Origin: Methylobacterium sp. NMS14P
GTDB taxonomy: Bacteria > Pseudomonadota > Alphaproteobacteria > Rhizobiales > Beijerinckiaceae
Assembly (NCBI RefSeq): GCF_028583545.1
Contig: NZ_CP087106.1
Location: 124,001 to 188,000, forward strand
Length of the DNA: 64,000 nt
Direction: 5' to 3'
This document shows positions 58,861-64,000 of this stretch, piece by piece. The position numbers were made by a program, and so were the translations under genes. Each line of letters opens with the position of its first letter. Position 1 is the first letter of the stretch. The notes under the pieces were generated by a model. The model searched no databases and was not told where the DNA came from. It worked only from the letters and a program-made list of their open reading frames with translations.

Positions 58861-59244
58861 CGCGCGCCGGCAGATCGCTGGGCCCGCCCGGGACGGGCGA
58901 CGCTGCACCCTTATGGCCGACATGGCCCCGCCGCGTCACGACGAGTCCGGAATCGTCCTAAATGCCGCCGCGTACCGAATTAAGACCACGCTGGCCATTT
59001 ACGCGCTTGAGCCGCTAGATCCGCGAAATCGCTGGACGGACGATCACGAAATCAAGAGCTGGAAAGTGATCGTAAAGGTGGCGCCGCCAAATGTGGGCCA
59101 CCGGCTGCATCGGGCTCCTGATTGCACGGCCCGCAGCCCTGTCCTGACCAGTGCGGACCGCTATTTACTATTAATCAATAGATAATTTGACGGCGGGCCG
59201 ATCCGTTCAATAGCGTCGCGACAACCGGTATAAGGAGTTCCGCC
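58861..59244. other. Upstream region of the carrier-protein operon
   Basis: 384 bp between the acyltransferase gene and the carrier-protein gene, with long AT-rich stretches (58970-59060 and 59150-59190). A CTATT-AATC-AATAG hairpin lies at 59167-59180, just before the promoter pair. No gene is evident. A 90-codon frame starting at 58913 has codon usage unlike the neighbours and is not called. Confidence 0.5.
59187..59216 (+). promoter_or_regulatory. Candidate promoter of the carrier-protein operon
   Basis: TTGACG (59187-59192), an 18-bp spacer and TAGCGT (59211-59216) precede the ribosome site AAGGAG (59232-59237) and TTG start at 59245. The leader would be only about 20-25 nt. Confidence 0.42.
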
Positions 59245-59499
59245 TTGAACATCGCTCAAGATATCCGTGAGATTCTGGGCTCGAACGAAGCCTTCGCCGG
59301 GAAGGCCGACCAGCTCTCCGAGGACGACAGCCTTTTCGATCTCGGCCTGGACTCGTTCGGTTCGGTCCAGCTGATGCTGGGCCTCGAGGAGCGCTTCAAT
59401 ATCGAGTTCCCCGACGAGCTCCTGAACCGCAAGTCGTTCTCGTCGATCCGCGCGATCCGCGAGGCCGTCTCCACCCTGATCCAGCAGGAAGCCGCATGA
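59245..59499 (+). CDS. Acyl-carrier-protein-like carrier protein
   Basis: 84 residues from TTG at 59245, with AAGGAG eight bases before it. The carrier fold is complete, with the phosphopantetheine serine Ser37 in GLDSFGSVQLM. It is not the fatty-acid AcpP of this organism type: the region around the serine (DSFGS rather than DSLD) and the absence of fab genes argue for a dedicated carrier. It is the natural acceptor for the aminoacyl ligase two genes on. The end overlaps the next gene by four bases. Confidence 0.9.
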   Translation: MNIAQDIREILGSNEAFAGKADQLSEDDSLFDLGLDSFGSVQLMLGLEERFNIEFPDELLNRKSFSSIRAIREAVSTLIQQEAA

Positions 59500-60659
59500 G
59501 CACGCTCGCCGCGCGCGCCGAGCGGGCCGCGGCGGTGGCGGCCCGCCACGCCGACGCTGTCGACCGCGAGGGCCGCTTTCCCGAGGAGGCCGTGGCCGCG
59601 ATGAAGGCCGAGCAGCTGCTCGGCCTTCAGATCCCGGGGCAGTTCGGCGGTGAGGGGGCCGGGCTGGTGCAGATCGCCGAGCTGTGCAGCACGCTCGGGC
59701 AGGCCTGCAGCGCGGCCGCGATGGTCTTCGCGATGCACCACATCAAGGTGTCCAGCCTCGTGACGCACGGCCTCGACAGCCCGTGGCACGGACGCCTGAT
59801 GGAGCGCATCGCGCGCGAGCAGCTGCTGGTCGCCTCCTCGACCACCGAGGCGGGCATCGGCGGCGACCTGCGCAACAGCCTCTGCGCCGTGGAGACCGCC
59901 GGCGAGGTCTTCGCCCTCGGCAAGGACGCGTCGGTGATCTCCTACGGCGCCCACGCCGACCTGATCCTCGCCACGGCCCGGCGCCATCCGGACGCGGCCA
60001 CGTCCGATCAGGTCCTCGTCGCGCTGATGGCCGATCAGATCTCCCTCGTGCGCACCGGGGACTGGGACACCCTCGGCATGCGCGGGACCTGCAGCGACGG
60101 CTTCCGGCTGGAGGCCCGGAATGTCCCGGTCGAGCAGATCCTTCCGAAGCCGTTCGCGGAGATCGCCGCCCAGTCGATGCTGGCCTCCTCGCACCTGCTG
60201 TGGAGCAGTGTCTGGTACGGGATCGCGACCTACGCGGTCGATCGCGCCCGCGCCTTCGTGCAGGCCGAGGCGCGGCGCCGGCCCGGGCAGGTCCCGCCGA
60301 CCGCGACGCGCCTGGCCGAGGTCTCCAACGCGCACCAAGCCATGCGCGGCACCATCGTGTCGGCCCTGCGCCGCTTCGAGGACGCACACGGGGACGCCGA
60401 CACGATCGGGTCTGTCGGCTTCTGCGTGATGCTCAACAACCTGAAGATCACCGTCTCCGACATGGCGGTCGACATCGTCCGGCGGGCGCTCGCCATCGTC
60501 GGCCTCGCCGGCTACCGCAACGACACGCCCTTCAGCCTGGGACGGCCGCTGCGCGACGTCCTCTCCGCGCCGCTGATGATCGGCAACGACCGCATCCTCG
60601 CCAACACCGCCAAGCTCCTGCTCGTGCAGAAGGGCAGCGGCCAGCTCATGAGCGCGTGA
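59496..60659 (+). CDS. Acyl-CoA dehydrogenase family flavoprotein
   Basis: 387 residues from ATG at 59496. The fold is shown by [25 protein letters not shown], and a C-terminal helical domain ending in the [22 protein letters not shown] region that holds the usual base position. Members oxidise acyl thioesters with FAD. In this operon it probably acts on aminoacyl or related thioesters on the carrier protein, as in amino-acid-modifying dehydrogenases of natural-product pathways. Substrate not proven. Confidence 0.88.
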
Positions 60660-61615
60660 TGGAATCGATCTCCTCTCCCCCCGGCGACGTCGTGCTCGAG
60701 GACGAGCCGGCCGGCGGCCCGACCTTCCTCGACCGCCTGTTCGACCACGGCCTGCTCGTCCGGACCGGCGTCGACGGCCTCTACGGCCGCAGCGGCGGCT
60801 TCGAGAGCGTCGTCGACGCCCTCGACCGGATGATCACGCGCCTCGGGGACGCCGAGGGGGCCGAGGTGCTGCGCTTCCCGCCGGCCATGAGCCGCCCGGC
60901 CTTCGAGCGCAGCGGCTACCTGAAGGGCTTCCCGAACCTCGCCGGCACCGTCCACAGCTTCTGCGGCGACGCGCGCGGCCACGCCGAGATCCTCGCGTGC
61001 CTCGAGGCCGGCACGGACTGGACCGGCCAGCAGGAGGCTACCGACATCGTGCTGACGCCCGCGGCCTGCTACCCGGTCTACCCGGTCGCCGCCGCGCGGG
61101 GCGCGCTGCCGGCCGAGGGCCGCCTGTTCGACCTGCAATCCTACTGCTTCCGGCGCGAGCCCTCGCTCGAACCGACCCGGATGCAGCTCTTCCGGATGCG
61201 CGAGTACGTGCGCATGGGCAGCCCCGAGCAGGTTCTGGCCTTCCGCGAATCCTGGCTCGAGCGCGGCACGGCCATGATCCGCGCCCTCGGCCTCCCCCTC
61301 GCGATCGACGCGGCCAACGACCCGTTCTTCGGCCGCGCCGGCCGGATGCTCGCCAACAACCAGCGGGCGCAGGGGCTGAAGTTCGAGCTGAACGTCCCGG
61401 TCAACAGCGTCGACAAGCCGACGGCCTGCCTCAGCTTCAACTATCACCAGGATCATTTCGGCAGCACCTGGGAGCTGCGTCAGGCGGACGGCGAGGTCGC
61501 CCACACGGCCTGCGTCGGCTTCGGCCTGGAGCGGATCACCCTGGCGCTCCTGCGCCACCACGGGCTCGATCTCGCCGCCTGGCCCGAGGCCGTGCGCGCC
61601 GAGCTGTGGGGCTGA
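60659..61615 (+). CDS. Amino acid:[carrier protein] ligase, class II aminoacyl-tRNA synthetase homologue
   Basis: 318 residues from ATG at 60659, overlapping the previous stop by one base (TGATG). The catalytic core of atypical seryl-tRNA synthetases is present, with motif 2 [22 protein letters not shown] and motif 3 [16 protein letters not shown], but there is no tRNA-binding arm. The zinc ligands fit Cys137, Glu182 and Cys285. Related enzymes from Bradyrhizobium and Agrobacterium activate small amino acids and load them on a phosphopantetheine carrier protein, not on tRNA. That carrier is encoded two genes upstream. Confidence 0.93.
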
Positions 61616-61619
61616 GGCG

Positions 61620-62591
61620 GTGACCGCCGCTCTGCGCCTGCCGGACGGTCTCGGAGCCGCGGGACCGTACGTCCCGCATCCGCTCCACGATTCCGGCCGC
61701 GACTGGCCGGAGACGAACTGCTACGTCGACCTCTGGATCGAGCTCCTGCACGGCCGCGGCCTCGTCCCGGAGGCGATGCTGGGCTTCACCCTGCGGCAGG
61801 ACTTCGAAGGCGACCAGTTCACCTTCTTCAAACCGCCGACCGGCGACATCGAGCGGCTCTACGGTCTCGAGGTGCTGGAGCTCGCGGTCTACGGCGGCCT
61901 CGAGAACCACGCCGTGATCCAGGCCGCGGCCGGCCGGCCGGTCCTGGTCGAGGTCGACGCGATCCACCTGCCCGACACGCAGGGGACCACCTACGGCCGC
62001 GAGCACGGCAAGACTACGATCGGGATCCTGGCCCTCGATCCGGCCTCTCAGGAACTCGACTACCTGCACAACGCGGGTCGCTTCCGGCTCTCGGGGGCGG
62101 ATTACGCCGGGATCTTCGGGCCGGCGACGTTGCCGCCCTACGCCGAGTTCGTGAAGGCCGTTGCCGCGCCGCTCGGCACGGCGGAGCTGCCGACGGTCGC
62201 GCGCGAACTGCTCGTCCGGCATCGAGCCCGGGCGCCCCGGCGCAACCCCGTCCTGGCGTTCCGCGACGCCCTCGCGGCGAGTGCCGGGAATCTGGTCGTC
62301 CGGCCGCTCGGCGTGTTCCACGCCTATGCCTTCAACACGACGCGCCAGCTCGGCGCCAATTTCGAGATGCTCGCCAGCCATCTCACGTGGCTCGAAGCCC
62401 GGGAGGCCGGCGGATTCGCGCCCGCCGCCGCGGCCGCCGCGGATCTCAGCCGCGAGGCCAAGGCCTTCCAGTTCCAGCTCGCCCGCGCCTTCCACCGCCG
62501 CTCGGCCGAGGGCATGGCGCCGCGCCTCGACCGCCTCGCGGCGACCTACGATCGCGTCTTCGCGGACCTCGACCGCGCGCTGGACGGCTGA
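61620..62591 (+). CDS. DUF1839 family protein
   Basis: 323 residues from GTG at 61620, five bases after the ligase. The family signature includes HDSGRDWPETNCYVDLWIELLHG, FTFFKPPTGDIERLYGLEV and FHAYAFNTTRQLGANFEMLASHL. DUF1839 proteins are found next to the carrier-protein ligase in proteobacteria. No catalytic residue is assigned. A transferase moving the aminoacyl group to its final acceptor is one hypothesis. The C-terminal half is helical. Confidence 0.88.
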   Translation: MTAALRLPDGLGAAGPYVPHPLHDSGRDWPETNCYVDLWIELLHGRGLVPEAMLGFTLRQDFEGDQFTFFKPPTGDIERLYGLEVLELAVYGGLENHAVIQAAAGRPVLVEVDAIHLPDTQGTTYGREHGKTTIGILALDPASQELDYLHNAGRFRLSGADYAGIFGPATLPPYAEFVKAVAAPLGTAELPTVARELLVRHRARAPRRNPVLAFRDALAASAGNLVVRPLGVFHAYAFNTTRQLGANFEMLASHLTWLEAREAGGFAPAAAAAADLSREAKAFQFQLARAFHRRSAEGMAPRLDRLAATYDRVFADLDRALDG

Positions 62592-62599
62592 GAGCCGCG

Positions 62600-64000
62600 A
62601 TGGCCCGCATCCGCAGCGTCGACGATCGGGCGCCGGAGGTCGAGCTCGGGCCGTGGCGGCTCGCCGCGACGCCGCCGGGCGCCTGCGCAGGGCCCGGCGA
62701 CCTCGACGCGGTCACCGACTGGATCCCGGCCGAGGTTCCCGGCACGGCCGCCGCCGCCCTGCAGGCGGCCGGACGCTGGAGCGCCGCGGCGCCGGAGCCG
62801 ATCCACGACCGCGACGTCTGGTATCGGACCCACCTCACCGGCTCCGGCCCGGCCCGGCTGCGCTTCGCGGGTCTCGCCACCATCGCCGAGATCTGGCTCG
62901 ACGGCATCCCGGTCCTCTGCACCCGCTCGATGTTCGAGGAGCACGTCGTCGACGTGGATCTCGGCGGCACCTCCGAGCTCGCGCTGTGCTTCCGCGCGCT
63001 CCGGGCGGCGCTCGACCGTCCGGCCAAGCGCGGGCGCTGGCGGCCGCGGATGATCACGCCCGGGTCGCTGCGCCACCTGCGCACCAGCGTCCTCGGATTC
63101 ATGCCGGGCTGGTGTCCCGAGATCGACCATGTCGGTCCCTACCGCCCGCTGACGGTCGAGCCTGTCCGCCTCCGGGTATCCGCCGCGGACGTGCGTCCGA
63201 CCCTCGACGGCGACATCGGCCGCCTGGCCGTGAGTCTGCGGGTCGACGGACCGGTCGGCACCGTCCGCCTCCGGTGCGGCGGCGGCGAAGCCCCGCTCGC
63301 CGAGGTCGAGCCGGGCGTGTTCGCGGGCGCCCTGGCGCTGCCCGGCATCGCGCCCTGGTGGCCGCATACCCACGGGGTGCCGAACCTCCACCCGGTCGAG
63401 GTCCGCGTCGACGATGCGGGGGTCGACCTGGGCCTCGTCGGCTTCCGGACCCTGGCGCTCACGCGGCCGTTCGAGGAGGGTCTCGCGCTGGCCGTGAACG
63501 GCGTGCCGGTCTTCTGCCGCGGCGCCGTCTGGACGCCGCCGGACCTCGTCGGGCTGGGCTCGGACGGCGCTCGCACGCTGCTCGGGCTGGCGCGCGCGGC
63601 CGGCATGAACATGCTGCGCGTCCCGGGGACGACGCTCTATCCGCCCCCGGACTTCTACGATCTCTGCGACGAGCTCGGCATCCTGGTCTGGCAGGACCTG
63701 ATGCTCGCCAACTTCGACTACCCGCACGCCGACCCGGCCTTCGCGGCCGAGCTCGACCGCGAGCTGTCGGGCTTCCTCGACCGGACGCAGACCGCGCCGT
63801 CGCTCTGCGTGATCTGCGGCGGGAGCGAGGTCTGGCAGCAGGCAGCGATGCTCGGGGCGCCGCGCGCCGTCTGGGCCGACGCGTTCTGCGCCGGGACCCT
63901 GCCCGGGCGCGTGGCGGCGCTGCGCCCCGATCTCGTCGTCGTGCCGAACTCGCCCTCCGGCGGCGACCTGCCGTTCTCGCCGCGCGGGGGCTGCACCCAC
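62600..64000 (+). CDS. Glycoside hydrolase family 2-like protein (3' end beyond window)
   Basis: 467 residues are visible from ATG at 62600, eight bases after DUF1839, and the frame is open at the edge. It has an N-terminal jelly-roll domain (DVWYRTHLTG, IAEIWLDGIPVL), an immunoglobulin-like part, and a TIM-barrel start with ARAAGMNMLRVPGTTLYPPPDFYDLCDELGILVWQDLM, close to beta-mannosidases. The acid/base region, normally GNNE, reads ICGGSEVWQQ. A sugar-handling protein that follows an aminoacyl-loading pathway is unusual. Confidence 0.85.
   Translation, partial: MARIRSVDDRAPEVELGPWRLAATPPGACAGPGDLDAVTDWIPAEVPGTAAAALQAAGRWSAAAPEPIHDRDVWYRTHLTGSGPARLRFAGLATIAEIWLDGIPVLCTRSMFEEHVVDVDLGGTSELALCFRALRAALDRPAKRGRWRPRMITPGSLRHLRTSVLGFMPGWCPEIDHVGPYRPLTVEPVRLRVSAADVRPTLDGDIGRLAVSLRVDGPVGTVRLRCGGGEAPLAEVEPGVFAGALALPGIAPWWPHTHGVPNLHPVEVRVDDAGVDLGLVGFRTLALTRPFEEGLALAVNGVPVFCRGAVWTPPDLVGLGSDGARTLLGLARAAGMNMLRVPGTTLYPPPDFYDLCDELGILVWQDLMLANFDYPHADPAFAAELDRELSGFLDRTQTAPSLCVICGGSEVWQQAAMLGAPRAVWADAFCAGTLPGRVAALRPDLVVVPNSPSGGDLPFSPRGGCTH

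Follow-up and report, generated by a model that had tools for sequence, protein, structure and literature searches.

What is the function of five co-directional genes packed at the end of a stretch of Methylobacterium sp. NMS14P DNA (positions 59245-64000 of the 64,000-nucleotide window, which covers 124001-188000 in a 6.9-Mb genome)? They code for a carrier protein, an acyl-CoA-dehydrogenase-like flavoprotein, a ligase derived from an aminoacyl-tRNA synthetase (aaRS), a DUF1839 protein, and a GH2 protein. The carrier (PP-binding), flavoprotein (Acyl-CoA_dh_N and Acyl-CoA_dh_1), DUF1839, and GH2 (Glyco_hydro_2_N2) proteins exceed their Pfam cut-offs, while the ligase stays under that for tRNA-synt_2b (20.5 versus 29.3). 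Adjacent genes overlap or are separated by no more than 8 bases, confirming the single operon proposed in a sequence-only reading of the window. The five-gene cassette is conserved, and we favor, at slightly better than even confidence, a role in which an amine-bearing acceptor, most likely an amino sugar, has an amino acid attached to it. The system has been known since 2010. The section on this neighborhood in a 2010 Biology Direct note already forecast that an amide would be formed with an amino sugar of the cell surface (PMC2922099), so the idea presented as undescribed in the sequence-only reading had been anticipated in both gene content and, nearly, function.

We surveyed the cassette in two samples. 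The first, a near-neighbor sample, combined the best 80 of at least 584 ligase relatives from named genomes with the Methylobacterium locus itself (L002), giving 81 loci. The carrier gene is near the ligase in the window and in 79 of the 81 loci, the flavoprotein gene in 78, and DUF1839 and GH2 in 77 each. Two incomplete loci at a contig end (L006 and L039) are without DUF1839 and GH2, and one at a contig start (L036) is without the carrier and flavoprotein. In L026 the contig begins just before the ligase, and neither DUF1839 nor GH2 was found in the following 10 kb. In L016 (9526-10891) the carrier and ligase stand by themselves, and none of the other three genes was found within 10 kb.

The second sample comprised 249 genomes of the order. 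DUF1839 is encoded in 36 and the ligase in 52; the NMS14P genome has a single ligase match. The 36 top-scoring ligases (E 3.4e-152 or better) come from exactly the 36 genomes with DUF1839, and the two genes adjoin on the same strand. The other 16 genomes have no DUF1839 match; their ligases score between 1e-110 and 1e-120 in 12 cases and are weaker (2.6e-40 to 3.2e-11) in four. Across a class sample DUF1839 is found in two of 240 genomes, NMS14P included. We fetched 35 of the 36 DUF1839 loci of the order, leaving out our own, together with one locus from the class sample (G186). All 36 encode the flavoprotein, ligase, and DUF1839, 35 encode GH2, and 33 the carrier, always on the ligase strand. 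The three loci without a carrier match (L121, L124, and L140) come from a single genus, and GH2 was missed in the G186 locus (L145). Co-occurrence in both samples is far beyond chance, and a chance neighborhood was rejected. The linkage of ligase homologues to the other four genes, which the sequence-only reading had made its test, holds for the closest ligases (DUF1839 in 36/36, the others nearly always); 16 of the 52 ligase genomes have no DUF1839 match, and the flavoprotein is kept in the 12 of these that we read.

The 12 mid-scoring ligase loci gave no DUF1839 or GH2 matches. All 12 encode the flavoprotein, four have a direct carrier match, and 10 have a clustered carrier-like open reading frame (ORF), as judged by its representative. 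A conserved ORF is also near the ligase in seven of these loci (for example L109:6489-7568); the copy scanned has no Pfam match. Two ligase matches in the genome survey, G454:C25:101400-102311 and G474:C76:164330-165241, hold one internal stop each, possibly due to decay or to a match overrunning the gene end.

Which amino acid might the operon activate? The ligase (60659..61615, + strand, 318 aa, class II aaRS core) overlaps the flavoprotein gene by one base. Its score against NCBIfam NF005479 (amino acid--[acyl-carrier-protein] ligase) is 514.3 bits (9.5e-155; cut-off 357), and residues 12-314 can be aligned with 4h2w_A at 7e-101 and, at 3.8e-97, with Bll0957 (3mey_A). Cys137, Glu182, and Cys285, presumably the zinc ligands, are invariant in 81/81 loci and align to 3mey, and the regions we take to be motifs 2 and 3 align without gaps to the same chain. 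These residues and motifs, like the carrier Ser37 (invariant, 79/79), are as the sequence-only reading had them. The ligase helix GRMLANNQR resembles that of 4h2w; 3mey differs there. The mid-scoring ligases form a second group with a different helix, reading GQMKAVSQK in L098, L099, and L109 as in 3mey. The Bll0957 type probably prefers glycine.

The carrier gene (59245..59499, + strand, 84 aa) begins with TTG, preceded by AAGGAG (59232..59237, + strand), which resembles a ribosome-binding site; the codon for the phosphopantetheine Ser37 is at 59353-59355. The protein matches PF00550 (1.6e-10) and NF005480 (92 bits, cut-off 72), while its match to the DltC profile is below cut-off. Its closest solved chains are 4h2w_C and 2jq4 (Atu2571), at about 8e-19; another aminoacyl carrier protein, 4h2s_C, which we take to be that of Bradyrhizobium, is far weaker (2e-5). 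The pair is like the Agrobacterium/Bradyrhizobium-type ligases and carriers, the ligase resembling 4h2w_A and Bll0957 and the carrier Atu2571; the Agrobacterium ligase is presumably Atu2573. Loading of an amino acid on the carrier arm is established in homologues, and by sequence family the ligase here probably does the same at Ser37. Gly, Ala, and Ser all figure in a review's table of amino acids that ligases of this kind load (PMC9437257).

The DUF1839 gene (61620..62591, + strand, 323 aa) follows after a 4-base gap. Its product matches PF08893 at 367.6 bits (cut-off 22.5, 7e-110) over residues 17-317, and the closest proteins are from Methylobacterium, the best being 95% identical and named M. 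radiotolerans. In one genome the DUF1839 match is split into two overlapping pieces (G447:C1:2515620-2516545), possibly from a frameshift or sequencing error. The part of a 2023 survey treating this family classed it as papain-like (PMC10318531). A predicted model (pLDDT 92.2, pTM 0.90) matches CcbD, AziU3/U2, and CtaG full-length by fold, for CcbD and CtaG beyond the protease core. Cys34 (codon 61719-61721) is invariant and begins a helix (34-45) in the model; Thr132/133 and His150 (62067-62069) may complete the site, making DUF1839 a candidate papain-fold transferase. CcbD employs a cysteine, and its acyl donor is bound to a carrier. A similar transfer by DUF1839 would be consistent with the predicted fold.

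The flavoprotein gene (59496..60659, + strand, 387 aa) overlaps the carrier gene by four bases. Among the solved proteins nearest to it are dehydrogenases as well as the nitrososynthases DnmZ and KijD3, and one fold match is ColB1 (7xp7), titled an assembly-line-tethered cysteine dehydrogenase. The protein has the acyl-CoA dehydrogenase fold, but the catalytic Glu expected of an alpha,beta-dehydrogenase is replaced: Ile362 (codon 60579-60581) aligns to the Glu of YEGTNQI in 3pfd, a position we take to be the catalytic base of acyl-CoA dehydrogenases. The residue is Ile in 73 and Val in four of 77, and Ile in 13/13 outside relatives. Both sets keep His233 (codon 60192-60194), Trp190, Trp236, and Trp240 without exception. 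Likewise, the solved cyclohexene-carboxyl-CoA dehydrogenase 7p98 has no Glu there. The flavoprotein is kept with both ligase types, and glycine has no beta carbon; if one type is indeed glycine-specific, ordinary alpha,beta-dehydrogenation would be ruled out. Because it also lacks the Glu base, oxidation at N or at the C-alpha-N bond appears likelier than ordinary alpha,beta-dehydrogenation.

The GH2 gene starts 8 bases after DUF1839 and continues past the window end (62600..64000, + strand, is its first part; L002:3600-6035 in full, 811 aa). The protein matches PF22666 (3e-11) and the beta-mannosidases 5n6u (2.4e-37) and 2vqu (6.6e-28). Glu410 (63827-63829) and Glu491, beyond the window, fall on both beta-mannosidase Glu positions and are each conserved in 72/72; we take them to be the acid/base and the nucleophile. 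Ser409 (72/72) stands in place of the Asn in 2vqu that precedes the acid/base. In this clan that Asn contacts the sugar 2-hydroxyl, and Ser occurs in glucosaminidases; Ser409 would thus fit a 2-amino sugar. No signal peptide is evident by eye at the sequence start, and the enzyme is apparently cytosolic.

On the reading we prefer, the ligase would adenylate a small amino acid and load it on the Ser37 phosphopantetheine arm; homologues are listed with Ala, Gly, or Ser, and we favor Ala. The flavoprotein would oxidize the carrier-bound aminoacyl group, more probably at N or the C-alpha-N bond. Cys34 of DUF1839 would take up the aminoacyl group and pass it to an amine in a CcbD-like ping-pong reaction, at a site that would also include His150 and Thr132/133, and GH2 would make, trim, or free the glycosidic acceptor or product. 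A tandem alpha/beta hydrolase encoded downstream may be an optional partner. The sequence-only reading had outlined much of this chain. Family membership upholds its carrier loading by an aaRS-derived ligase and the predicted fold agrees with its transfer to a sugar-like acceptor; its oxidation step can be offered as a guess, and the acceptor is one we infer.

Is the core of carrier, flavoprotein, and ligase tied to this chemistry? Ligase matches are present in 87 plasmid records, of which we read nine (L083-L091). Three plasmid loci (L084, L085, and L087) have all five genes, while in the distant ones (L086 and L088-L091) DUF1839 and GH2 were not found. A Priestia megaterium plasmid (NZ_CP085444.1, L083) encodes the core only, with the ligase 42% and the flavoprotein 39% identical. 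Its core lies after acpS and before genes for a DMT transporter, an ATP-grasp protein, a thioesterase, an alanine permease, and an alanine racemase, while a D-Ala-D-Ala ligase gene is found upstream. The whole resembles a self-protected cluster for making an alanine-analogue metabolite. This setting favors alanine as the amino acid and shows the core to be separable from DUF1839 and GH2.

Several observations weigh against transfer to an amino sugar. As the Priestia core lacks DUF1839 and GH2 and adjoins an ATP-grasp gene, the core is not tied to sugars. AziU3/U2, presumably an aziridine synthase, shares the DUF1839 fold, and the fold by itself is therefore no proof of amide transfer. Neither phmmer nor profile searches linked the DUF1839 sequence to CcbD or CtaG, and the DUF1839 profile had no matches among the sequences of solved structures. 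Dehydrogenases and monooxygenases match the flavoprotein about equally, so fold comparison cannot decide its chemistry. Only 20 of the 81 ligase loci have relatives of the window polysaccharide genes at a distance of up to about 10 kb (L002 begins downstream of those genes and was counted as a miss), and six have relatives of the window acyltransferase. The earlier argument from such neighbors is accordingly weak, and polysaccharide linkage was rejected as general evidence. In the DUF1839 entry of the 2023 survey, the catalytic His is off its canonical papain-fold place and the site is an atypical C(T/S)H (PMC10318531). That site, and the fact that papain-like folds are often hydrolases, would also suit a DUF1839 hydrolase or thioesterase in an operon oxidizing a carrier-bound amino acid for catabolism or redox housekeeping, with GH2 a fellow traveler. 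We consider this unlikely, as GH2 is linked as tightly as the other genes (35/36) and the fold match spans all of CcbD and CtaG rather than the protease core alone.

A product other than a sugar amide is possible, though we would not bet on it: a small diffusible amino-acid-derived antimetabolite or signal, for which DUF1839 would join the oxidized aminoacyl group to a non-sugar amine and GH2 would unmask a glycosylated pro-form. The Priestia core with AcpS, a transporter, and alanine genes looks like metabolite production with self-protection; more distant ligase-like proteins of the plasmid loci sit in polyketide synthase (PKS)/nonribosomal peptide synthetase (NRPS)-like clusters; and CtaG, one of the fold matches, presumably belongs to closthioamide biosynthesis. 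However, no additional partner accompanies the proteobacterial cassette more constantly than a glycosidase (GH2 35/36). Equally tentative is the idea that the carrier, Glu-less flavoprotein, and ligase are a portable module oxidizing tethered Ala or Gly, at N or at the C-alpha-N bond, for lineage-specific acceptor enzymes, be they DUF1839 and GH2, ATP-grasp ligases, or other partners. The DUF1839 version would yield an N-oxidized or imino-acyl amino-sugar amide, which, if so, would be an undescribed product. The flavoprotein might instead act on the acceptor amino sugar, like KijD3 and DnmZ, but it persists next to the ligase in loci that lack both DUF1839 and GH2 (12/12 mid-scoring loci and Priestia), which makes this very improbable.

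How does the amino-sugar reading compare with known systems? DltA and DltC also place an amino acid on a small carrier, for transfer to an envelope polymer; unlike in the operon, the AMP-forming ligase DltA comes from another family, and its pathway gives D-alanyl esters. The lincosamide condensing enzymes CcbD and LmbD, CtaG, and AziU3/U2 share the full-length fold of the DUF1839 model. They differ from DUF1839 in the place of the proposed His and in that the donor here would be loaded by an aaRS-derived ligase, and no sequence-level similarity was found. The 2010 section, like our survey, lists a carrier protein (ACP), a redox enzyme, a conserved uncharacterized protein (Atu2574), and a glycosidase; it differs in calling the redox enzyme Rossmann-fold, where we find an acyl-CoA-dehydrogenase-type flavoprotein, in giving Atu2574 no fold, and in citing saccharide neighbors, which are not constant here (PMC2922099). 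In the literature searched, DUF1839, PF08893, Atu2574, or Atu2572 are named in PMC2922099 and PMC10318531. A link between DUF1839 and CcbD was not found in that literature, which excluded subscription papers, and a word search of the PMC10318531 text gave neither CcbD nor lincosamide. New here are the CcbD/CtaG-type fold of the DUF1839 model, the quantified cassette, a core that can be separated from the rest, and unusual active-site residues in the flavoprotein and GH2. The operon offers a testable chain of aminoacyl-carrier donor, flavoprotein modifier, DUF1839 transferase, and a glycosidase that hints at the kind of acceptor. Should this chain hold, it would tie an aaRS-derived enzyme to lincosamide-type carrier-to-amino-sugar amide chemistry in soil and plant bacteria.

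The same-strand gene run extends past the window. The tandem alpha/beta hydrolase (L002:6025-7806) is found in 51 of the 81 loci, in 24 on the same strand, and is related to exosortase-A-associated hydrolases 1 and 2, under their cut-offs. Its first half has GLRLG at the expected GxSxG serine site and its second half GGCSG; Cys389 is kept in 49/49 aligned relatives, suggesting a cysteine nucleophile is likely. The 427-aa protein that follows (L002:7803-9086) had no match in Pfam and PDB searches and is found in six of the 81 loci, all Methylobacterium. Near the proteobacterial cassette, ORFs named by eye as ABC-ATPase-like are in 21 of the 81 loci and glycosyltransferase-like in 26. In Rhizobiaceae, EpmB-, EpmA-, and EF-P-like genes, also assigned by eye, directly precede the cassette (29-32 of 81 loci; for example L064:7263-8315, L043:6065-7129, and L066:5435-6031), probably reflecting local synteny. 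On an Alkalihalophilus plasmid a BtrH_N-domain protein (L091:8488-9381), a candidate carrier-to-amine transferase, adjoins a distant ligase-like gene.

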